A stretch of 23,644 nt of DNA from Plasmodium relictum (lineage: Eukaryota > Apicomplexa > Aconoidasida > Haemosporida > Plasmodiidae), in NCBI RefSeq assembly GCF_900005765.1, contig NW_021628816.1, forward strand, positions 1 to 23,644, given 5' to 3'. The first letter of the stretch is position 1. The number at the start of each line of letters is the position of its first letter. The translations under genes and the position numbers were made by a program. The notes below the pieces were generated by a model. The model had not been told where the DNA came from and did not search any database. It saw only the letters and a list, made by a program, of their open reading frames with translations. Positions 7,508 through 23,644 of the stretch are shown here, one piece after another.

Positions 7508-8392
7508 ATGAAATATAAAAATTATATGATCCTTAGATTTTTTATTATACATTTTTTTACTGTATTGTATTTTTTGTCACAAGTAAGAAAACAATTATAT
7601 TTAAATATATGTATCTTATTTTCTGTTTTTTAAGTATTTTATTAAATCAGTACTCTATTCTTTTAAAAATAAATATTTTTTTAAATATTTAATATTTTGA
7701 TTGTAATATAGTGCACATTAAAAACAAAGAAAATAGAATCTTTAAGATCACCATTCGATACAAACCATACAAGAAATTTATCAGAACAAGATGAAGATTT
7801 TCTTGAGAAACTGAAAACTTCGCATGTTTCAACAAAATTAAATCCTGAAGAATGTAATAATATGCAAGCAAAATTGGAAGATTCGAAGGAACAAGTTTCA
7901 GAAAAATGCAATTATGAAGAAGCATCTTCACATGATTCAGAACAGAAGATGGAATTGAGTGAAATGCAGAAAATGTGGAAAGATATGATTAATGAACAGC
8001 TATCAAAAAATGATATGATAAATGCAACGATACAAAATTGGGATAATGTTTGCTTAGTACATGGAACAGGAAAATTTTTAACAGGTGAAGTTTGTAAACA
8101 AACTAGGTTAGGTTGTTGGGATCAAAGGAAAAAAATTAATATGTTGGTAAAAAATGTACAATATTTTAATGAATTTAAATGTCTTGAGGAGCAAGGGTGC
8201 ACAAAAGAGAGTTTTTTAACTTTTCTTCATAAGGCAGAAAAGGAGATGGAAGACACTAGAAATAAGCAACTAATTATGTGGAAAGAATATTTGAATGAAT
8301 TAGTGACTTCTATAGATCAATATATTTCAAAATGCAATGTAAGCACAGCCACTCAAGAATCAGAAGAAGAGATAAAAAAAGATGATAAATAG
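7508..8392 (+). CDS. PEXEL-containing exported protein, family unknown (exons 7508-7582 and 7712-8392)
   Basis: This complete two-exon gene of 251 codons plus stop has the classic layout of a Plasmodium exported protein. Exon 1 (25 codons from the ATG at 7508) is almost entirely a hydrophobic signal-like helix ending VLYFLSQ. The phase-0 intron is followed by exon 2, with the export motif RNLSE (R-x-L-x-E) at residues 46-50. Plasmepsin V normally cuts after the Leu, and the protein then goes to the red-cell cytosol. The mature part is acidic and soluble at both ends, with no second membrane helix. Its core (about residues 105-235) is predicted helical, with four Trp (about 114, 135, 161, 215) and seven Cys. 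It does not match the PHIST domain pattern as I know it. One of the small avian-parasite two-exon families (fam-e to fam-h type) is possible but unproven. The Met at 7862 often called as a start is inside exon 2. Confidence 0.8.
7583..7711 (+). other. Intron of the PEXEL gene
   Basis: A 129-bp phase-0 intron, donor GTAAGA and acceptor TTGTAATATAG. Splicing joins ...FLSQ directly to CTLKTKK and keeps the frame to the stop at 8390-8392. Confidence 0.8.
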
Positions 8393-10965: not shown

Positions 10966-12045
10966 AAAAGTTAAATTTTAAAGCGCTCATAAGTTTGATA
11001 GGTAAACACCTAAATTAACTTTTGAATTTATTCTTAAACTGAAGAACATGTATTTAAATAACTAAGCATATAATATGTTCACAAATAGTAGAGAAAAAAG
11101 GTAATATTCAAGCAGACAAAAAATTTTAGGATGGTATTCACATTAATAGTCAAAAACTATAAAATTAATAATAACAAGAAAAGTATAGGGGATATAAAAA
11201 AAAGGAACTGAAAAAAAAAGAGGAAGATACATAATGAAGTGAATTAACAAGTATATATAAAAAAGAAAAAATTAAAAAATATTGTACATTTTTCTTATGC
11301 TAAGTCGTCAAAAAGATGCTCTCCTTTTGGTGAGTAAGGATAAGCTTAAGAATTCTTACTATTTTATACGTAAGAGGGAAAAAGCAAGAGTATGAAAGTG
11401 CATAGAATAAATAAATGTGATACATTTGGGGAATTTATTCCAAAAAAACAGATACTCTATTTTATATATATATATATTTGTATAGTTAATAATATTATAG
11501 ACCTTTTCTAATTATATTAATAAAAAATATAAAATACATAAAATTTTAATTGTGCATGTAAGGTTTGCAAGGAAAATATATATATTTAAATGCATACGCT
11601 ATAGTTTATGAATCTAAAAATACCTACACTTAAAAGTGCATATGCTAAAAAAAAAAAAAAATTAGGTAAAAATATATATGTGCATGTATTATAATTATTT
11701 CTCATTATTTTTTTTATTAATTTCTAAACAAAAATAATGTTTTTCTTCGATTTTTTTTTTTTTTTTTTTTTGAGTTTTTGTTTCTATGAGTGTTATGCGT
11801 AGTATAAAATACATGATTTTGTGTATACCAATAATTGTGTAGTGCATATGTTAACTCAGGTGTGTTATAAATAATAGAATTGATATTAGGTGATTAATTA
11901 CCAAATATCATAAAAGTGTAATACAATGTATTTTGGGAATAAAATGAATTTTGTATGTTAAAATAAATATTATAATTTATAAATAGTTAATAAGCATTTG
12001 TAATAATTAATATTATAATAAATAAAATAAGTAAAAATATCTCTA
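10966..12045. other. Gene-free stretch with purine-rich and slightly GC-richer patches
   Basis: 11090-11250 is strongly purine-rich. 11297-11395 is a short open frame of 32 codons starting MLSRQKDALLLVSKDKLK, with a more balanced composition than its surroundings. It may be a coding remnant, but I cannot assign it. The remainder shows nothing beyond T runs (11750-11771) and TA-rich sequence. Confidence 0.35.
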
Positions 12046-12110
12046 CATGCTCTTTATTAATACGCTAATTCAATACATTAACTAAATCATTGAACATTTG
12101 TCAATAAAAA
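12046..12110. repeat. Dispersed imperfect palindrome, copy 5
   Basis: CATGCTCTTTATTAATACGC at the left end, TTCAATACATTAACTAAATC in the middle and ATTGAACATTTGTCAATAAA at the right. It lies about 70 bp from copy 6, in the opposite orientation. Confidence 0.7.
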
Positions 12111-12180
12111 ATTTGACTTACCATTTTGAAATTCTAATATGACAAAAAATATTACTCATAAAAGTTGCTAAAAAATGCAA

Positions 12181-12247
12181 GATTTATTAATTTTCCATTC
12201 AATGATTTCGCTAAAGTATTGAATGAGCAAATTAATAAAAAACATGT
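12181..12247. repeat. Dispersed imperfect palindrome, copy 6
   Basis: GATTTATTAATTTTCCATTC, then GCTAAAGTATTGAATGAGCA, then AATTAATAAAAAACATG. It is followed by GTAGAGATGTCTCAACTAAT, the tail that accompanies several copies. It marks the left edge of module B. Confidence 0.8.
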
Positions 12248-12854
12248 AGAGATGTCTCAACTAATTTTATTCATAGTTGGTTAATAAAAGGTATTATTAA
12301 CCTTTTGTAGCATGCTAAGTTAGTTGCTAGTTGTATACGTACAAGTTAGCCATGCACTGACGCTAGTCTTATAAAAAAAAAAAAAAAATAAAGTTATTTA
12401 TTTTTTGTTTGTCTATTTATATATATATACATCTTTGTAATTAAAAAAAAAAAAAATTAATATATTTTTTTTTTTTGGGAGTTTTGAAAGTTATGTTATG
12501 TTATGTTATAATATGTTTTAATTTTTAGTGTAAATAAAAATTAAAAGAAAGAAATGTTAACTTATTAAAACTTAAGAGATAAGAGAAATGTTTATGTATT
12601 ATTCAATGTATATCTTGAAATAACATTGAATATCATAAAATTTTGACTTAATAAATTGTTATAAATTGTTTGTATGTTTTTAATTAAAAGAAGATATTAA
12701 TTCTTTGTAAATAAAAACTCATTTATAACTGTTAATAGGTTTATTAAAAGATGCAGTAAAATTTAACTTCAATTAAATATTATGCATCATAAGAAAACAG
12801 TATATATATATATAATAAAAACGAATATATATACATAAACGTATACTTAGTTAT
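12248..12854. repeat. Module B, copy 1
   Basis: About 600 bp, noncoding, duplicated in diverged form at about 14916-15535. Anchors in order: GGTTAATAAAAGG / GGTTAATAAAACA; CATGCACTGACGCTAG / CATGCACTGATGTTAG; AATTAAAAGAAGATATTAAT / AATTAAAAGAATATACGTAT, each followed by TCTTTGTAA; and TTAGTTATACATGCTCTTTA / TTAGTTATGCATGCTCTTTG leading into a palindrome. A (TTATG)3 run lies at 12491-12505. Confidence 0.75.
12279..12302. repeat. Perfect 9-bp hairpin at the left end of module B
   Basis: GGTTAATAA, a six-base loop AAGGTA, then TTATTAACC. The block 12281-12306 is also repeated exactly, in reverse complement, at 13406-13431. Confidence 0.9.
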
Positions 12855-12923
12855 ACATGCTCTTTATTAATTTGTTTGCTTAATACTCTAGCAAAGTCAT
12901 TAAACGGGCAATTAATAAATCAA
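12855..12923. repeat. Dispersed imperfect palindrome, copy 7 (boundary of modules B and D)
   Basis: CATGCTCTTTATTAATTTGT at the left, AATACTCTAGCAAAGTCATT in the centre, and GGGCAATTAATAAATCAA at the right. The TTATTAATT and AATTAATAA arms are perfect inverted repeats. This is one of the best-preserved copies. Confidence 0.85.
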
Positions 12924-13530
12924 TAGTAGACATATACTTATGCCACTAATACGTAAATTTTATACATACAATTTACAAAACTGAGGAATTATTTTTTCGG
13001 AGACATGCACTTACTTTAATAAATAATAACTTTTATTTTTATTAAAAATTAAAATCTTTAAAACTATTGATTGTATGTAAAATAATTAGTTAAAGCAAGC
13101 AAATAAATTCAAATTATAGTTATTAGCAGTCATTCATAAATACGTAAAAATTAAATGCTAATAAAAACAAAATCCCTTTACTTTTTCTATTAAACTTTGA
13201 ATTAAATTTTCTATAGTTCAAAAATTAATAAGACAAAAACTAATTTTTGTATATAATAATTTATTAATTTTCTCTCCAGAATAAAAATAAAAAAATATAT
13301 TTAACAAAAACAATTTTGAAAGTATAGAAGTAATAACTTTTTTTTTAGCTGTCTAATGTGTATAGTTAACCCTCTATTTTCTTTAAAAGTTAACTATTAT
13401 TTTATAAAAGGTTAATAATACCTTTTATTAATCATTAAAATATGTTGAGCGTATAAATAAACTTCTATCTATGATATATTTCATCTTGTTAACAACCAAA
13501 AAGGTAGATAACGCTTTTTATTTACATGCA
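12924..13530. repeat. Module D, copy 1
   Basis: Duplicated in diverged form at 17943-18430. Anchors: TTTATTTTTATTAAAAATTA / TTTATTTTTATTAAAAATTT; TATGTAAAATAATTA / TATGTAAAATAATTA; and AAGCAAATAA / AAGCAAATAA. The right end (13406-13431) is an exact inverted copy of the left end of module B. No open frame. Confidence 0.75.
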
Positions 13531-14479: not shown

Positions 14480-14830
14480 AAAAATGTAATACTAGCTATT
14501 ATTGAAAAAGGAAAAAAATCTTCCACAAGAAAGCAAATCATCTAAATTAGAAACAATTATGAAAACCAGATAGAAACAGAAAATATGAAAATTGATGATG
14601 ACAAAAAATAGGAAAAAGAATCATATGTTTATCTAATTTCTGGTCATTTTAGTGATGAAGTTAATAATAATATTAACCTTAATTTTAAGATTAGCAACAA
14701 ATTAAGTGAATTTGCGCTAGATGTTGTTGTCTATTTATGCGCAATGTCTCTCTTAAAAGGAATTAGTACTATAATAACATCTGAATATTTCTAGAATGAA
14801 AATATATGGTGTAATGAATGAGTAATATAT
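14480..14830 (+). pseudogene. Coding remnant, possibly the Ty3/gypsy protease region
   Basis: In one frame 14612-14791 is open for 60 codons without an ATG, and the frame continues upstream with a TAG at 14609 and an earlier TAA. Composition is visibly less AT-rich than the surroundings. The end reads ALDVVVYLCAMSLLKGIST, then a stop at 14792, then NENIWC. In Ty3/gypsy polyproteins the protease ends with a hydrophobic stretch, a D-hh-LG-(M/I)-D-W block, and an I-x-(F/W) about 15 residues later; LLKGIS and NIW could be worn versions. The position, upstream of an RT remnant in the same orientation, fits. The catalytic D-(S/T)-G is not seen, so the assignment is tentative; coding origin itself is more certain. 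Confidence 0.4.
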
Positions 14831-14915
14831 GAAAATATTCACAGAAATATTCATTAATATGAGGATTATGAATAATCAGATTAAAATAAGATTCATCATA
14901 TTCTTTTCTAAAAAT

Positions 14916-15535
14916 GATCATATATTAATCAGCGGAGATATTATATAAATTGTAATATTGGTTAATAAAACATGCCATTAGACTTTTATAGTATACAAAG
15001 CTAACTTACTAGTCGAAAAAATACGAGTCAGTCATGCACTGATGTTAGTTAAAAAAAAATATATATATATAGCTATATTTTTTTGTGTTTATTTTATTCT
15101 ATGTATCTTTTGTAAATATAAAAAAAAAAGCATTTTTTTTTTTTTATTATTTTTTTTGTAGTGTTTTGAATTGAAGAGAAAGTCAATTTAATAATGAAAA
15201 TTAACATATGAACAGTGACCATAACAAAATTTTTTATTTCTTTTAATAAATATAAGATACAACTTGGATTATATTCGATTGGCATATTTTGAAATAATAG
15301 TGAATAACTTAAAATTTAATTTTGTTATTTGTCATAACTTTATTATTTGTGTGAGTTTTTAAATTAAAAGAATATACGTATTCTTTGTAAGTAGGTATAT
15401 ATTTTCCAAAGTAAATATAAGTCTGTTAAGAAATATAAAATTGCTTAGTTCAAATTAAATGTTATATATGATAAATATTTCTGTGTATAATATAAGAATA
15501 AGTATATACACTAAAAATCAGTATATTTAGTTATG
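14916..15535. repeat. Module B, copy 2, lying between two coding remnants
   Basis: Diverged duplicate of 12248-12854 (anchors listed there). It starts with a degraded left flank, then GGTTAATAAAAC at 14956, and ends in palindrome copy 8. Unlike copy 1 it is followed by retrotransposon sequence and not by module D. A long terminal repeat of the retrotransposon is an alternative reading, because TGGGATTAGG just after it (from about 15607) starts with TGG like a tRNA primer-binding site. Confidence 0.65.
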
Positions 15536-15601
15536 CATGCTCTTTGTTAATTTGTTTGTTTAATACTCTAGAAAAGTTATTAAATAACCAATTAATAAAT
15601 T
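15536..15601. repeat. Dispersed imperfect palindrome, copy 8
   Basis: CATGCTCTTTGTTAATTTGT, AATACTCTAGAAAAGTTATT and ACCAATTAATAAATTAA. It is nearly the same as copy 7 and ends about 85 bp before the retrotransposon coding remnant. Confidence 0.8.
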
Positions 15602-15685
15602 AAATATGGGATTAGGAAAGTTGAAGTAAATTGTATTTAAGTCATATATAAAAAAGAAAATGTAAAACTTTACTGAGTTCTTTGA

Positions 15686-16842
15686 AAAAGTTGGCATCAG
15701 CTCCTTGAAGTACGTGAGTTGGAAAAAGAACTCGGAAATATGCTCTTATATAAGAAAATGATATAAATAAAAAGTAAACATTTAATTTTATTGAAATACA
15801 TGTCAAACATTAAGGATATAATTCCATACTTCTAGGTGAAAATTTATTATTTGAATTGAAATTAAAATTCGTTGATATGATACAATTAAAAATTACAAGT
15901 TGCTAGTACAAAATGAACTTCATCTATTGAATAGAAAAGAAAAAATATTATATATGAATAGATAGTACAGTTTATGCTCATTCTAATTGGAATATTATAG
16001 CTAATTTTTTACTTTATTCGGCAATTGATGTATACTTCTAAAATTTTTTATGATATAAAACAGTTTTCAAAATTATACATTAAATTTGAATTCTAAAATA
16101 CAAATTCAGAAGGGAATGATAAGTACCGTACTGTCATAATTTTTTTCTATTATAAAATGTTTATTTTTGATACATTATCTTTTAGTTAAAACTAATTTTG
16201 ATTAAATTAAAACATTATTAGGAAATCTTTTTGTAAATGTAATTCAAGAAAAAAGTATATTTATCTATATTGATTATATTATCATTCATACAAAATCCAT
16301 TTCTGAGAATTTTTAGATATCAAAGAATTTTTTGAAATTTCTTAAGATCAAATTAAGAATAATCCTTGATAAAAATAAGTTTCAAGTAATTCATAACACA
16401 CTTAAGAAAAATTATAGATTCCGAAAAGTCAAAGACTTCATTATATGACTATAATATAATTATTAAAGATAATAAACCTAAATAAAAATAACAATTGTTT
16501 TGGAATCCTCTAATTATTACAGAAAGTATATTAAAATGTTTCCAGTTATAACATCCAAACTAAATTTATTATAAGCGAAAAGGAAAAATCTTATATTGTT
16601 ACAGAACTATTTTAATACATTTGATAAAAAAAAAATAAATAACAGAAATAGCTTATCTTTTATCATAGTGGTATATTAGGATTTATATTATTTATACACA
16701 TAAATCATATTATTCTACAGATTAGTACTAAAATAAAAAGTATTCGTTTTAATAGATTTATTCATTTCATGTAAAAGAAAATTAATGATTTTCAACATAA
16801 ATTACATTTAAGATATTCCATGAATCTTTCTATTATTATATT
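15686..16842 (+). pseudogene. Ty3/gypsy reverse transcriptase remnant (with the start of RNase H)
   Basis: A broken pol gene readable in pieces across frames. 15707-15830: EVRELEKELGNMLLYKKMI, a stop, then IKSKH, matching the pre-RT block (E-x-E-x-x-x-M/L-L-x-x-G-x-I-x-x-S-x-S) of gypsy RTs, then NIKDIIPYF like the (K/R)D-x-(Y/F)-P-(L/I)-P region. 16111-16135: DKYRTV, like the (K/D)-x-K-T-A-F region. 16206-16445, one frame with a single stop (16314): NLFVNVIQEKSIFIYIDYII then HTKS, the palm motif Y-x-D-D with the second Asp now Tyr, followed by the conserved LK..KLRI.LDK.KF block. 16512-16535, same frame: NYYRKYIK, the (G)-L-x-N-Y-Y-R-(K/R)-F-I block that opens the RNase H linker. At about 16747-16770 FVLIDLFIS could be the RNase H (T)DAS motif. 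Several stops and shifts, so not functional. The order and spacing of motifs are those of an RT domain. Confidence 0.85.
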
Positions 16843-17392
16843 GGCTAATAAATGATATTATTATCCCTTAATGAAATAATATTTAGCAAATTATTTAGAA
16901 AATAAGATGTTAGTTATACACGCTAGCTATTTAAAAAATATTGAACTATAAAATAAGAAAAGAATATAAATATTTTTTTTTCTATGATGAATTAAATTAA
17001 TTTAGAAAACAATGAAAAATTAAGCTTAAATTAAATGAAAAAAAAAAAGGATTTTGCTTTTGATGATATTTAATTTTTAGTCTTTTTTGAAAATATTGCT
17101 AATAACTTTAACGTGAACAGTTATTTTATTTAAAAAGATAAATTTATGTATAATGAAAATTTTTTGCAATGAAAATTAATATTTTAATAAAAACAAGGAC
17201 ATTTTTATTAAATTAAATAAATGCTTCAAGTACAATAAATATTCTGTTATGTAAACTATGTGTACAAAGAGTACTCATTTATACAATAAATGTAATTTTA
17301 GCAATAATTAAAATTAGTATGTACAACTTTACAATCTATCTGTTATATTTTTTTTCTCAATATTTTGCTAATAAAGTATAAATTAACATGAT
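16843..17392. repeat. Module with a B-like left end
   Basis: Begins TGGCTAATAAATGATATTATTATCCC, a worn copy of the hairpin block at 12279, followed by TTAGTTATACACGCTAGC, comparable to the TTAGCCATGCACTGACGCTAG of module B. The remainder, up to module A copy 2, is unaligned AT-rich DNA. Noncoding. Confidence 0.5.
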
Positions 17393-17876
17393 TGCATTCT
17401 GAATAGAGTTACATACTCATCAAGATGTTTCAGACGAATGAAAACTAAAAATTTATAAAATATGGATTGTTTTAAAATTTGAGAATTTCACAAATCGAAA
17501 ATTTTTTTTTTTTTTTAATTTTTTTTTGTATAATTATTTTATCAATTTTTATAAAAAGCCTTTATGAATTTTGGATAAGCACATATTTGATGAGGAATTA
17601 TACATCTAGTAAAAAAATTTGAATGATCAAAAAGAAAGAAGCTAATATCGAAGAGAAGAAGAAATTCTCTTAAAGTAAACAAGAATGTCTGAATAGGTAA
17701 TGAAATGTTAGAAGAGAAAATATTTAATTAATTATATGATGTTTATTATAAGTTATATATAATTTACATGTGAGTACTATATATTTAAAAATAATTAAAC
17801 ACTAAATTAGCTTTAAATTCAACTTCTACATAAGAGAATTAATAAACCTAATTAAAATTAGCAAATACTTATCTAC
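17393..17876. repeat. Module A, copy 2
   Basis: Diverged duplicate of 8941-8967 plus 9388-9825. Here the two halves are continuous. Ends in palindrome copy 9. No open frame. Confidence 0.65.
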
Positions 17877-17942
17877 TTGCTATTTATTAATGTATTTGTT
17901 CATTGCTATTGCAAATTCACTGAAAAGGCAATTAATAAATCA
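17877..17942. repeat. Dispersed imperfect palindrome, copy 9 (boundary of modules A and D)
   Basis: CTTGCTATTTATTAATGTAT, TTCATTGCTATTGCAAATTC and AAAGGCAATTAATAAATC. The centre is degraded and the arms are kept. Confidence 0.7.
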
Positions 17943-18430
17943 ATAGTTAAGTAGTTACAATTTTAGATGAATTTATTTACTTTAATAAAAATACACCTTT
18001 ATTTTTATTAAAAATTTAAATCTCTGCCAAAACTATTTATTATGTAAAATAATTAATTAAAACAAGCAAATAACATTTTAATACAGTTATTCACAACATT
18101 TCAAAAACACATAAAAATTATATATTAATAAAAACAAAATATTTTTTGTTTTTCTGCTAAATTTATAATTCAATTTTTTTTTTATCATAAAAAAAAATAT
18201 AATTCGATTTAGCAACATCAATTTTTATCCCAAATTTTTATAAAATTAATTTCTCAAAATCTGCTTTTTTTCTCATAAAAAAAAAATATATATATATTAT
18301 TTTTTTTTTTAGGATTAGAGAATGACTGGACTAGTTCGTTGCTTTAATTATGTAAGACAAGCTATTATATTATAAAAAATTAACAATATCTTTTATCCAG
18401 TCATTAAATCATAAAGAAATTTCATATTTC
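17943..18430. repeat. Module D, copy 2
   Basis: Diverged duplicate of 12924-13530 (anchors given there). The right end (about 18375-18430: AATTAACAATATCTTTTATC, then CAGTCATTAAATCAT) corresponds to 13406-13440 of copy 1. Noncoding. Confidence 0.65.
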
Positions 18431-18472
18431 TATATTCTTGTTATTAGCTGTGTATACACATGTTTTTCGTAA

Positions 18473-18649
18473 ATATTATATGAAAATACTCCTGAAACCA
18501 GAAATATTCATTTAAATGGCCAATGGAATATATCACATAAAGATATAATACACTTAAGAAATAAATTATTAATAGTAATGATATGAAATATGGTAATTTT
18601 ATATTCTATGAAATATCCTAAAAATAAGAAGGCAAATAAAGCATTATAA
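18473..18649 (+). pseudogene. Short coding-like remnant, possibly RNase H of the same pol gene
   Basis: One frame is open for 58 codons apart from one stop (18584). It reads NTPETRNIHLNGQWNIS, HKD, then HLRNKLLIV. In Ty3/gypsy RNase H a block L-N-x-x-(Q/E)-x-N-Y-S is followed by (K/R)-E-L-L-A-(I/V)-V; the resemblance is suggestive but short. The stretch after it, 18650-18955, is AT-rich with no frame I can follow. Coding origin is uncertain. Confidence 0.3.
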
Positions 18650-18955
18650 ATCAAGTATATCATATAAAATTATTAAAAGTTATATCATAGAATAATAGAA
18701 TAATCAAATAAGGTATTAAAGACTATATTCATATATTATTGAAAAAAAAATTCATATTTCCCTAAAAAAAATCAAATTTTTATATAACAAAAAAAGAAAG
18801 ATCTACAAGATTTAACTAAAGAATTTAGTTCATGTAAATGAAAATCCATGAACATATATAATATCCATATTCATACTGAAATTTTAGAGTAATATTTCAT
18901 TTTAGGAAATTGATAGTATTTTTCCTTTTAACATGAATGATAGCAAGGTAAAAAT

Positions 18956-19021
18956 GATTAATTAATTGCATGTTTAAAAAATTTTGTAGAGTATTGATAA
19001 AATAAATTAATAAAGAGCATG
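18956..19021. repeat. Dispersed imperfect palindrome, copy 10
   Basis: GATTAATTAATTGCATG, then TAGAGTATTGATAAAATAAA, then TTAATAAAGAGCATG. It is in the same orientation as copies 3 and 6, with the usual tail (CTAATTCTGATTATTAT) following. Confidence 0.7.
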
Positions 19022-19660
19022 TGAAGTTGACTTTTGCTAATTCTGATTATTATAAGAATAAATTTTAATGAATAAGTAGCTTTATATAATTATATTCTAT
19101 AACATGAAAAAAATATCTTACATATTATGATATTTGCAATCCTTTAAATAAATATATGCAAACAAAAATTTTTATCATTCATAATATATTAACTATTTTA
19201 TAAGAAGAATTTATCTAATTTAATTAAAATTTCCTTTTTTTTTTATTAAAACTTAAATTCTCATTATAAAAATCTTTGACTATATATAAAATAATCTTTT
19301 GTATACGAATTTATAATTCTCCATAAAATTAATTTTTACTCAAAAACAATGTACTTATTTATCAAAAATTAATTTTCATCATAAATTTATATGACGGTTT
19401 AGAATCTATTTTAAATTATAAAATATAATTTAAAAAAAAAAAAAAATATAATATAATTATCAACAAATATAATGTTAACAAAAAGAAAAAATATTCATTT
19501 TTTATCAATGCACTTATCTATTGAATAATATTTTTATCTATTTCATTAAGTTATTTTTTTAAATATCTTAAATATACAGCTAATTTTTCACTGTACATTA
19601 CTAATTCATGTGTTTAAAAAGGTTGATAACACTATTGAAAAGAATAAACAAAGAAATATT
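19022..19660. repeat. Module D-like copy after palindrome 10
   Basis: Noncoding. TTTTTTTTTATTAAAACTTAAATTC and CTTTGACTATATATAAAATAATC resemble the start of module D, and AAAAAGGTTGATAACACTATTGA at 19616-19638 resembles the AAAAAGGTAGATAACGCTTT at its end. More worn than the other copies. Confidence 0.4.
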
Positions 19661-19960
19661 GAAATGTTTCTATGTATAATAAAATATATGGGAATTTAAT
19701 ACCTAATGAAAATCCCCTTCAGTCTTCTTGATGTGGTGGAAAATAGTTAAAATGTATTTTTAACCTTTGAGGATGTATAAATTGAGCAAAGTAAATTATA
19801 AAACACTAATGATATATTCAAAATATACTGGTATATGATCCAGTGTTTTAACTAATTAGTCACAGATACTCAAAGTCAATAGTAAAGAATAATTTTTTCT
19901 GGATAATAATTTTTCAAATTTTAAATTTTCATATTATTTGTGATTATAAATTAGGAGGAA
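19661..19960. other. Slightly GC-richer stretch, possible coding remnant
   Basis: 19700-19880 has fewer homopolymers than its surroundings (for example CCCCTTCAGTCTTCTTGATG and GGTATATGATCCAGTG). All frames carry several stops and I can read no known domain. It could be more of the decayed retrotransposon or an unrelated relic. Confidence 0.2.
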
Positions 19961-22416
19961 ATTATGCTAATATATTATGATAAATAAAAATGTTGGAACA
20001 AAACATTTATATTAAAGATATTTTTTTATATAATGTAAAACATTATATTATTTTTATGTTTTTATGCAATGGCATAAATATCTGTAATACAAGTCTAATA
20101 ATTTTATTTATTTTTTTGATTGATCATAAAAGTGTGAGTCTTACAATCTAATAAAACTATTGTATTATTAAAGTTTAATTACACTTTTATTATTATTTTA
20201 TCACTATTATAATAATTACAAATAAAAATTCTATCCTTTTTTTATTTGAATTATTAATGTTACATAACAATAATCTTTAAAAATTGTTATCATCATTAGA
20301 ATGCTATATCTAGCAATAATCTTATGTTTATTTCTTCTTTGTTAAGTTTTATTTCATTTTTTTTTTATTTTGAAATTTTAACTTATTTTAATTAATTGAA
20401 ATAATTATTGCGCTTTATATATGGATTCTTGGTTAAATTTTTAATAAATATATTTCATATATTTAAATTATTTTTATTTTTAGAATTATAAATTCATTTT
20501 CTATGCTATTTTTACACTGTAATGAAAAAATATAAAATGAAAAAAATAAACATATATTTTTTTTTATTTTAAAGGATAACAAAACTAGAAATATATCTAA
20601 CATATAAGTTCTCTTCAGCATGTATTAATTATTTAATCAATTAAAGATTAAGGAACAAATATAGCTTTTTCTTTCTATTAATTATTCAGATGAATTAAAT
20701 GAATTAGCATTATGTGTTCATAATAAAAAATATTGCACATATAAAATTTTAAAATAAAATTTATATCCATATATATTTTATAAATTATGGAATATTTAAA
20801 TAAATAAAAAATATTTTTATATAATAATAATGTTTGTTTTATTTTATTCTATTTTATCTAATATAATTGTATTAGTATAAAAAGAAATGCTAGAGAATTA
20901 TTAGAGATAAGAAAAAGAATATATGAAATGCATGCAAATAAAAAAAAAAGGAATCATAAAAAAAACAAATAAAGAAAACTCATATTAATGTACAATAAAA
21001 TAAAAATGAAACAATTTTATAAATAAAAATTGTGTTAGTAGAAAATGAAAGAACTTAATGGATAAAAATAATTAATTAAAGTAAACTTTTAGTTAATTGA
21101 AAAAATGTAAAAATATTTTTACGATAATTTAGTGATATTTTTTTTTTTTTTGAAGTTTTTTAACTATTAAAGAGAATCCATAGATGCATACTTAATTGTC
21201 CTTCCCAGTGCAACCTAAATAATTTTGTAAATTATATATTAGCTTCAAAAAAAAGTTTATTTTTAGTTATTTTTTCAGAGAAATAAAATAATACTTTCTA
21301 CATTTAAAAAAAATTGCCTTCTATTTTTTTTTTTTTAGTACAAAAAATAGTATTGAAAAAAATAAATTACTATGATCTCTTTCTACTTGAGTGATATCCT
21401 TCTGAACATCATTTTTTACACCTTTTTATGATCCTTAATTTGTACATTTTTATAATTACCTATAAATAAACTATATTATAAATTATAAAGAAAAAGTTCA
21501 TAATAGTCAGATAACTTAAAAATATTGGTAAATAAAATATAAAAAACTTGAAATTTTAAGTCAGTGACATGTGAAATACCGTGAAAATGGAAATGCTCAA
21601 TAATGAAATAATAAAATGAAAATAAAAAATACTAAAATAAATATCACCTATATAAAAAAATCATTAATTAAAAAAAACGATAACATAAAAAAAAAAGATC
21701 AATATAAAAAATAAATTATTGAATATTAAAATAATATTTTAAAAACATTTTTAAAATTTAACTTTGATCTCTCTAGTATACACATTTTTCATATTATCAA
21801 TTCCTTCTGTATTTTTGCAAATATCATAAATATTTATATAAAATAAAATAATTTAATTGCATGTTTCTAAAAATAAATATTCTTTTATAATTTAAAATAA
21901 TTAGATTTATAAATTAATAAATTTCGAAAGATAAAAATATATTGAAGCAACATCATTGATATTATAATAATGTTTCTTTTATTCTTTTTTTTAATAAATA
22001 CAAAAAAAAAAAAAAATGCAAATTTTTTTTTAAAATTTATAAAAAAAAGTAAAAATAAAATAAAATTTAAATATTTAAATGAAAATTATAATTTATGTGT
22101 AACTATATGAAGTTTATTAAAATTTTGTATTTAATATTTATCCTTTATATTTAAAAGGAAATTATTAAAAAAATTTTAATATATAATGTTTATAATTGAA
22201 AATTTCTAATAAAAAAATATTTTATAGCGAAGAAAAATCAAATGAGAATCTTTTAAATTAATTTCGGTTTCCTTTATATTTTATCGTTTACAATTTTATT
22301 TATAATATTATAATAAAATTTTCATCTTATTTCTAGGAAACTGGAAATATATTTTTTTTCTAAAAACTATCATAACATAAATTATACCATAAAATAAATT
22401 AATAATATCTCTTTAG
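19961..22416. other. Gene-free stretch upstream of the right-hand gene
   Basis: Very AT-rich, with A runs (20939-20950, 22001-22016) and T runs (21139-21151, 21325-21336). None of the ten palindromes occurs here. I find no open frame, so if the gene at 22449 ever had an upstream exon it is not visible in this interval. Confidence 0.5.
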
Positions 22417-22448: not shown

Positions 22449-23644
22449 ATGGATTCTAATTCTTTCTCAGATTATACAAATGACAATTCAAAGGAGAAAG
22501 ATGCACATCCCATACAATCAAATTCATCAAGTGATTCAGGATCTATTTCACCTAAAATAAGTTCCCCGACATTTACTACATCTTCTCATGATAAACCTTT
22601 ACTTATTTCCGAAAATTCAAATGGATCTCCACCTAGTTTATCAGGATCCTCTTCTGGGGATTTGATTACATTCTTTCAATTAGCTGTAATTCTTCTGTTT
22701 CTTCTTCGTTATAAAGTAAAATAAAATCCATACTAAAAAATATATAATTTTTTTTTTAATTTTTTTAACCATTTATCAAAGTTCTACTAACCTTAAAAAA
22801 TATCTTTTTAAATACCTAATTAATTTTTGTTGTAGAATAACTTTCTTGGAAAATCGAGTAATAGTAAAAGCAAAAAAAAAGAACAGTCTTCAAGTAAACA
22901 ACTGGTGAAAAGCTATCTAAAAAATATAAAGGAAGTGGAAGATCTAGAAGAGTTTAAAGAATTCAGAGATGAGATAAAAAATATGGAAAGCTTATTTAAT
23001 TTAGAAGATGACATGGATTATAAAGAAAATGAGGAATATTTGCAGTGGAAAAAAGAATTAAAAGATTTAGATAAGGTACTAGATTTAGAACTATCTGATG
23101 ATTGGGAGGATATAAAAGAGCTAAAATATCTAGATAAAGAAAAATGCAATAAATTTAGTAGTTATAAAGGAGAATCAAAAAGCCGTGAAGTGGGAGGAGC
23201 ACGAAGAAAAGAAGTAAAAGAACCAGGAATTATGGCAAAGAATACAAAAGAGATAAAACTACAATCATCAAGAAGCATGAATGGAAAAGAAAAAGATCAG
23301 AAATCCAAGAAAATCATATTCAAAAAAATAGAAATTCCAATGGAAAATATCATACAAATAAAAAAAGAAGAGAAACCATTAGAAAATATCAGAGAAAAAA
23401 AAGTAGAACTTCCATTGATCAATGTTAGAGAAAAAGGAAAAGAGCAACCATTAGATAATGTCAGAGAAAAAAAAGTAGAACTTCCATTGACGAATGTTAG
23501 AGAAAAAGAAAAAGAGCAACCATTAGAAAATATCAGAGAAAAAAAAGTAGAACTTCCATTGACCAATGTTAGAGAAAAAGAAAAAGAGCAACCATTAGAA
23601 AATATCAGAGAAAAAAAAGTAGAACTTCCATTGACCAATGTTAG
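22449..23644 (+). CDS. SURFIN/STP1-like membrane protein, 3' end outside the window (exons 22449-22715 and 22836-)
   Basis: Exon 1 (89 codons from the ATG at 22449) is a Ser/Asn/Pro-rich segment with no signal peptide and ends in one hydrophobic helix (residues about 72-87, LITFFQLAVILLFLLRY). Exon 2 (269 codons to the window edge) starts NNFLGKSSNSKSKKK and is highly charged, with acidic and lysine-rich helices and two Trp (LQWKKELK, DDWEDIKE), then 24-residue tandem repeats. This order (no signal peptide, Ser-rich ectodomain, one helix, intron just inside the membrane, large charged cytoplasmic part) is that of SURFIN/STP1 proteins at the infected-cell surface. Their long Cys-rich ectodomain is absent here. 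Either this is a truncated relative, or the ATG lies in a later exon (acceptors at 22416 or 22438 are possible). Other charged-repeat exported proteins remain an alternative. Coding status is secure; the family is not. Confidence 0.6.
22716..22835 (+). other. Intron of the SURFIN/STP1-like gene
   Basis: A 120-bp phase-0 intron: donor GTAAAA right after the membrane helix, acceptor TTTTTGTTGTAG. The exon on each side is in frame, and the intron itself carries in-frame stops. Confidence 0.8.
23331..23644 (+). repeat. 72-bp tandem repeats encoding 24 residues, built of two 12-residue halves
   Basis: GTAGAACTTCCATTG recurs at 23403, 23475, 23547 and 23619, exactly 72 bp apart. Each unit encodes VELPLTNVREKE and KEQPLENIREKK. 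Both halves share PL-x-N-(V/I)-R-E-K, so a 36-bp ancestor was doubled and then amplified. Degenerate half-units lie to the left (EEKPLENIREKK from 23367, and IPMENIIQIK before it). The array runs off the window. Confidence 0.95.

Follow-up and report, generated by a model that had tools for sequence, protein, structure and literature searches.

Introduction

Ty3/gypsy fragments were reported from two avian malaria parasites in 2018, 344 in Plasmodium relictum and 1244 in P. gallinaceum (Boehme et al. 2018, PMC5880244), as counted with RepeatMasker at a length of at least 400 bp using the DNA of a full-length element (PMC5880244). The same paper describes a copy on chromosome 6 of P. relictum SGS1 with LTRs of 253 and 257 bp (PMC5880244). 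A copy found here on contig C6 (L023) fits that description: its LTR matches are 251 and 255 bp long at 96.5% identity, although a second repeated block (93.6%) follows, so that the LTR may be longer. In a survey from 2022, the family was confirmed, colonisation of the common ancestor of P. relictum and P. gallinaceum was suggested, and none of the other Plasmodium examined there was found to have it (PMC9141347). By the published descriptions, the Ty3/gypsy elements of Eimeria, Ascogregarina and Haemoproteus belong to the same broad apicomplexan family (PMC5880244, PMC9141347), the Eimeria element being chromovirus-like and the P. gallinaceum element being without a chromodomain (PMC5880244). 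PF00385 is absent from the precomputed domain list of the P. gallinaceum retrotransposon used for comparison here (P0001). A literature search for solo LTRs in P. relictum found no paper.

Here we analyse a window of 23,644 nucleotides, which is the whole of contig C361 (NW_021628816.1) in a P. relictum genome of 22,602,028 bases and 514 contigs, and which is probably subtelomeric. We will argue that the plus strand of this window very probably carries a single Ty3/gypsy LTR retrotransposon of the avian Plasmodium lineage in a decayed state, with later LTRs inserted into it. The alignments support the presence of a dead Ty3/gypsy reverse transcriptase (RT) in this genome, and in this the original prediction, made from the letters of the DNA alone, holds. 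The relic shares its lineage and its domain order with the Ty3/gypsy elements of P. relictum SGS1 and P. gallinaceum, as well as LTRs with TGG...TCA ends. It differs from the other P. relictum copies in being far more decayed, with 83 of 220 residues (38%) identical to the in-genome Gag-Pol frame L003 over five ungapped pieces, compared with 68-97% between L003 and 16 other P. relictum rows. Further differences are the missing integrase core and the interruption by several LTRs. The relic adds a very decayed copy to an already known family, and knowledge of the family is unchanged by it.

Coding Remnants

The following coding pieces were recognised, mainly by alignment to in-genome copies, some of them with long open frames, which align piecewise with the plus strand of the window.

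14757-14945, + strand: protease-region remnant (tblastn/tblastx to the protease region of L017/L024, two handles for a single copy; 31.7% over 63 aa; E 5e-8, small search space; active-site Asp not established)
15757-15900, + strand: weak pre-RT/fingers remnant (31% identity to the L003 stretch with RRYNPRPLSEEML; E 0.07 in a restricted search; colinear)
16007-16186, + strand: RT palm from motif A to before the YxDD block, with FSKLYI, catalytic Asp replaced (frame 2; 19/60 identical to L003 277-336; 1 stop)
16185-16343, + strand: RT palm with YIDY (16266-16277) for YIDD (frame 3; 20/53 identical to L003 337-389; 2 stops)
16393-16497, + strand: RT thumb side (frame 1; 17/35 identical to L003 408-442; 2 stops)
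16500-16634, + strand: RT connection with NYYRKYIK (16512-16535) (frame 3; 17/45 identical to L003 446-490; 1 stop)
16700-16841, + strand: RNase H remnant (frame 2; tblastn to L003 519-570; 10/27 identical over 16754-16834, 1 stop)
18416-18953, + strand: C-terminal part of the integrase and end of Gag-Pol (P0001 residues 1283-1464 of 1485; two overlapping matches in different frames)

The order protease, RT, RNase H, integrase is thus found on a single strand (14757-14945, 16007-16634, 16700-16841 and 18416-18953), and the relic is larger than originally described: besides the stretch of RT and RNase H (about 15757-16841), it includes the protease remnant and the end of the integrase. L017, to whose protease region the first piece aligns, carries RVP and gag-asp_proteas matches. 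At the other end, the two matches to P0001 have E values of 3e-10 and 7e-11 in a small search space, and L028 gives 41.5% over 18416-18574. Assignment of 18416-18881 to the integrase core was considered and rejected, as the P0001 numbering (1283-1464 of 1485) corresponds to the C-terminal part. Between RNase H and 18416 about 350 residues are missing, including the integrase catalytic core, and LTR pieces are found there instead; the RNase H matches themselves continue to 16864, overlapping an LTR start at 16842. No confident match was obtained for gag: P0001 residues 1-620 gave nothing significant, and one tblastx match covered 29 residues at 27.6%.

The motifs on which the RT had been recognised can be placed on L003. 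Counted on the fragments, YIDY lies at exactly 16266-16277, as predicted, and it aligns with VYIDD of L003; NYYRKYIK, at exactly 16512-16535, aligns with NYYRNYIRNF. The predicted loss of the second Asp of YxDD (YIDD to YIDY) is real by the same alignment, and so are the stops, of which there are seven in the five matched ungapped pieces. DKYRT was correctly identified, because it aligns with the KQYTS stretch just after motif A in L003, although it lies at 16118-16132 and not at 16111. A pre-RT block placed at 15707-15783, on the other hand, finds no backing: the match at 15701-15811 is worse (E 14) and non-colinear with L003, and what corresponds to the pre-RT stretch of L003 in colinear position is instead the weak piece at 15757-15900 (31% identity, E 0.07 in a restricted search). 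The palm, its C-terminal part and the linker had also been assigned to one frame over 16206-16535. A gapped alignment can indeed be followed in a single frame from 16185 to 16661 (28.8%), and the YIDY and NYYRKYIK parts are both in frame 3; the middle, 16393-16497, nevertheless matches best in frame 1 (48.6%) and is flanked by the frame 3 stretches. The motif A stretch is in frame 2.

Both of the palm Asp positions examined are replaced in the alignment to L003, FSKIDL of motif A having become FSKLYI and YIDD having become YIDY. Judged by these alignments, the relic is a Ty3/gypsy member by descent and a dead one, its functional catalytic residues being lost.

Nested and Neighbouring LTRs

The coding pieces are separated and surrounded by LTRs, which are listed here by position.

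About 11489-12116, + strand: LTR G, tentative candidate for the relic's own 5' LTR (66-87% matches to LTR copies; end set by eye)
12181-13434, - strand: LTR alpha, interrupted by LTR A (LTR-like ends at 12181 and 13434)
12278-12922, + strand: solo LTR A, 645 bp (ends TGG...TCA; flanked by the target duplication ATAGT, 12273-12277 and 12923-12927)
14959-15602, + strand: solo LTR B, 644 bp, between protease and RT (starts TGG, ends TA, the canonical CA being changed; whole-length matches mostly 75-81%)
16842-17365, + strand: LTR E, truncated before its 3' end (LTR-like start TGGCTAATAAATGATATTATTATCCC; putative boundaries)
17366-17942, + strand: solo LTR C, about 577 bp (71-73% similar to eight copies with lengths of about 500-630 bp; TG...TCA ends by eye)
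17950-18404, - strand: LTR D, a fragment in opposite orientation (71-83% matches to partial copies; putative boundaries)
18955-19650, - strand: LTR F, about 20 codons before the expected Gag-Pol end (70-76% like other copies; putative far boundary)

When the LTRs were compared with the window by blastn under permissive scoring (match 1, mismatch -1), much of the window was covered, and most of this was set aside as composition noise; only those LTR starts and ends were kept that also have clear termini or matches under stricter scoring.

LTR B lies between protease and RT and is bounded by the target duplication AATAT, 5 bp long and identical on both sides (14954-14958 and 15603-15607). In its whole-length comparison, 40 of 1248 candidates were scored and gave 79 matches, the highest at 81%. 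LTR A, which lies within the older LTR alpha, is the best preserved among the LTRs compared: a 642-bp copy in L024 matches it at 95% identity, and one in L025 does so at 96% over 491 bp. By chance, a 5-bp match occurs at 119 of 22,990 positions at the spacing of LTR B (644) and at 129 of 22,989 at that of LTR A (645). No target duplication was seen by eye at the outer flanks of LTR alpha, and none that matches was seen at the flanks of LTR C. Among the remaining pieces, LTR E is 68% like an L028 repeat over 16965-17362, and this repeat continues into the shared LTR end; LTR D has an 80% match in LTR alpha, in the stretch at 13.0-13.2 kb; and LTR F directly adjoins the last matched codons of the relic, with a near target duplication (AAAAA/AAGAA) by eye.

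Among LTRs whose bodies are quite different, the last 66 bp or so at the 3' end are conserved and partly palindromic (...TTTATTAATT...AATTAATAAATCA), and they occur in both orientations: at 12855-12922, 15536-15602 and 17875-17942 on the plus strand, and from 8969, 9854, 12181 and 18955 onward on the minus strand. This stretch may be a functional end of the LTR.

It is possible that LTR G is the relic's own 5' LTR. Its spacing is near that expected for the 5' end of the relic, and one match to an LTR copy (67%) covers nearly its whole length; the tentative assignment is based on spacing and LTR similarity. A by-eye comparison beside four in-genome copies recognised no primer binding site after LTR G. 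The 3' counterpart was sought at 19651-22400, and no convincing match to LTR G was obtained; from 20099 to 22400 the DNA is instead similar to contig C150. No LTR pair of the relic's own with TG...CA ends was thus identified, candidate G being without a convincing downstream partner, and the exact target duplications of about 5 bp are those of the nested LTRs A and B.

One Element or Several

The reading that we prefer can be told as a sequence of events. By analogy with its family, the intact element would have used its own reverse transcriptase to make copies via RNA and its integrase to insert them. After insertion, function would have been lost, with replacement of the palm Asp residues, stops, frame changes and disappearance of the integrase core. 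Later LTR retrotransposons would then have inserted into the relic and shrunk to solo LTRs by recombination between their ends, leaving B between protease and RT, C together with the pieces E and D at the place of the missing integrase core, and F near the gene end. Upstream, LTR alpha was itself later struck by LTR A. Directly shown are the homology, the domain order, the position of B with its target duplication and the nesting of A in an older LTR; descent of all domain pieces from one insertion, the reduction to solo LTRs and the role of G as own 5' LTR are inferred.

From the positions of the nested LTRs it follows that the relic is older than B, C and F, and that alpha is older than A. 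The nested LTRs with target duplications thus give a local order of invasion: first the relic, then B, and A within an older LTR. The original prediction had spoken of a dated relic. Since no LTR pair of its own could be identified, the relic can only be ordered relative to the inserted LTRs, and absolute dating is not possible.

The main competitor to a single insertion is a patchwork, in which the pieces are fragments of several Ty3/gypsy elements assembled by subtelomeric recombination. The neighbourhood is indeed full of LTR pieces in both orientations, and the interval from RNase H to integrase is short by about 350 residues. In addition, 20099-22400 is 71-76% similar to contig C150, and segments therefore do get duplicated. 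Against this, the coding pieces are on one strand and in the correct order, and GC is similar in the four domain stretches (19-23%). Moreover, when LTR B is left out of account, the distance from protease to RT is about 416 bp and agrees within about 50 bp with that of another copy, L003 (about 468). We consider a patchwork decidedly unlikely on these grounds, and one insertion would account for all of the domain pieces.

Detection of the RT and Controls

An RT profile was built from in-genome and other elements and searched on the 638 six-frame fragments of the window of at least 20 residues. The two fragments with the predicted motifs rank at the top and in the correct order along the profile: 16206-16313 with YIDY is first of 638 (25.2 bits, profile 148-179), and 16482-16571 with NYYRKYIK is second (14.2 bits, profile 246-268). 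The third (4.7 bits) lies outside the relic. As controls, 40 shuffled windows and the reversed window were scored, with maxima of 7.8 and 7.3 bits respectively. The remaining RT fragments of the relic are at background in this search, with 16390-16482 at rank 9 and 16001-16093 at rank 12 among the matches listed.

The alignment of L003 to 15603-18954 by tblastn is colinear and has an E value of 9.1e-11, while the lowest value in 500 dinucleotide shuffles is 0.011. With tblastx against the reversed window, five of six in-genome elements gave no match at E <= 0.01, and the sixth, L025, gave six weak matches (E 0.007). The composition is very biased, and Pfam returned no family for 10 short stop-to-stop fragments of the window, which is what motifs arising by chance in AT-rich noncoding DNA would lead one to expect; yet the shuffled and reversed controls refute that explanation, to which we assign a negligible probability. 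A DNA match of 75% over 84 bp to contig C489, which itself has an RVT_1 match of 24.1 bits, below the Pfam cut-off, in the genome-wide scan, also speaks against it.

The genome-wide scan with PF00078 (RVT_1) gave 104 matches at E <= 1, and contig C361 was not among them. A literal Pfam-type test would have missed the RT, and it is the in-genome relatives that carry the case. That the relic escaped a genome-wide Pfam RT scan suggests that the published fragment counts may understate the oldest layer of these elements.

Relatives and Age

The reference set consisted of 121 proteins, namely L003 and the 120 listed of 525 found, and 19 of them gave a plus-strand match at E <= 10. E values below 1e-3 were limited to two of them, 2.8e-9 for L003 and 3.1e-4 for P0001 of P. 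gallinaceum. Among solved structures, L003 is closest to the Gag-Pol polyprotein of Ty3 (E 2e-69); the yeast Ty3 entries (PDB 7q5b and 4ol8) are distant, but the best solved, relatives of L003. The RT of the relic is closest to Ty3/gypsy RTs, as seen through L003 and the P. gallinaceum element, the window fragments themselves having no Pfam match. Origin from another class of retroelement (Ty1/copia-like, LINE or virus-like RT), for which nothing specific speaks, has hardly any probability left, since the integrase remains are downstream of the RT and not upstream as in the Ty1/copia test, and since L003, with its affinity to Ty3 Gag-Pol, carries RT_RNaseH_2 and Integrase_H2C2.

With the pieces summed, the relic has an identity of 0.35-0.40 with 17 P. 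relictum rows, which stand for 16 places because L017 and L024 are one copy; with P0001 it is 0.33, and with the 14 further elements of the set 0.16-0.24. For this set, which was also that of the first tree, 19 in-genome rows were tried, of which L020 and L029 were dropped for having fewer than 251 filled columns; the set excludes L004, L018 and L019, and its protein rows are 15 of the 120 listed proteins.

The genome contains two supported RT clades (among L003, L005-L016, L021, L022 and L024, with P0001 compared), and L012 has about 60-72% residue identity to the other clade. In the first tree, the relic shows no clear preference for either of them, and P0001 is joined with one P. relictum clade at 95/90. 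In the second tree, which left out L017, L021 and the protein rows other than P0001-P0006, this join is unsupported, and an AU test does not reject a single P. relictum clade (p 0.186). Paraphyly of the P. relictum pol sequences, with the P. gallinaceum element nested among them, was considered, and we make no claim for it. How the two P. relictum clades are ordered with respect to that element matters for the published claim of independent acquisitions.

The GC content of the relic is 18.9-23.4% by domain. In five copies with less damage it is 26.2-27.9%, as measured on one open frame and on four complete internal regions, two of them with nested LTRs inside. The mismatches to L003 by codon position number 99, 70 and 110 of 220. 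This fairly even distribution is what would be expected after long neutral decay, while the lowest count at the second position points to some divergence under selection. If part of the divergence thus dates from a functional past, the relic may come from an already diverged lineage. An origin in an early Ty3/gypsy wave in the bird malaria lineage, older than both P. relictum RT clades and possibly preceding the split from P. gallinaceum, is conceivable, though we regard it as rather doubtful. Were it true, the published picture of separate acquisitions in each species would miss an older, almost erased layer.

Other Features of the Contig

Outside the relic and the LTRs, the contig carries parts of several genes. 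At 2-1812 there is the C-terminal part of a CLAG gene (Pfam CLAG, E 4e-147 and 6e-68), whose two frames probably correspond to two exons. A small gene at about 7508-8392, probably also of two exons, has a signal-like start and an RNLSE stretch, which we take to resemble the PEXEL export motif. At 22452-23644, a gene start with a hydrophobic stretch is followed by a 36/72-bp tandem repeat array that runs off the contig; we presume that it resembles the subtelomeric genes of STP1/SURFIN type. The small gene gave no Pfam match above cut-off and the gene start at 22452-23644 no Pfam match; neither gave an NCBIfam match, and NCBIfam gave no match for any of the three flanking proteins. Upstream of the gene at 22452-23644, the similarity of 20099-22400 to C150 falls into three blocks (C150:3148-6617), and this stretch is perhaps the upstream part of a paralogous gene.
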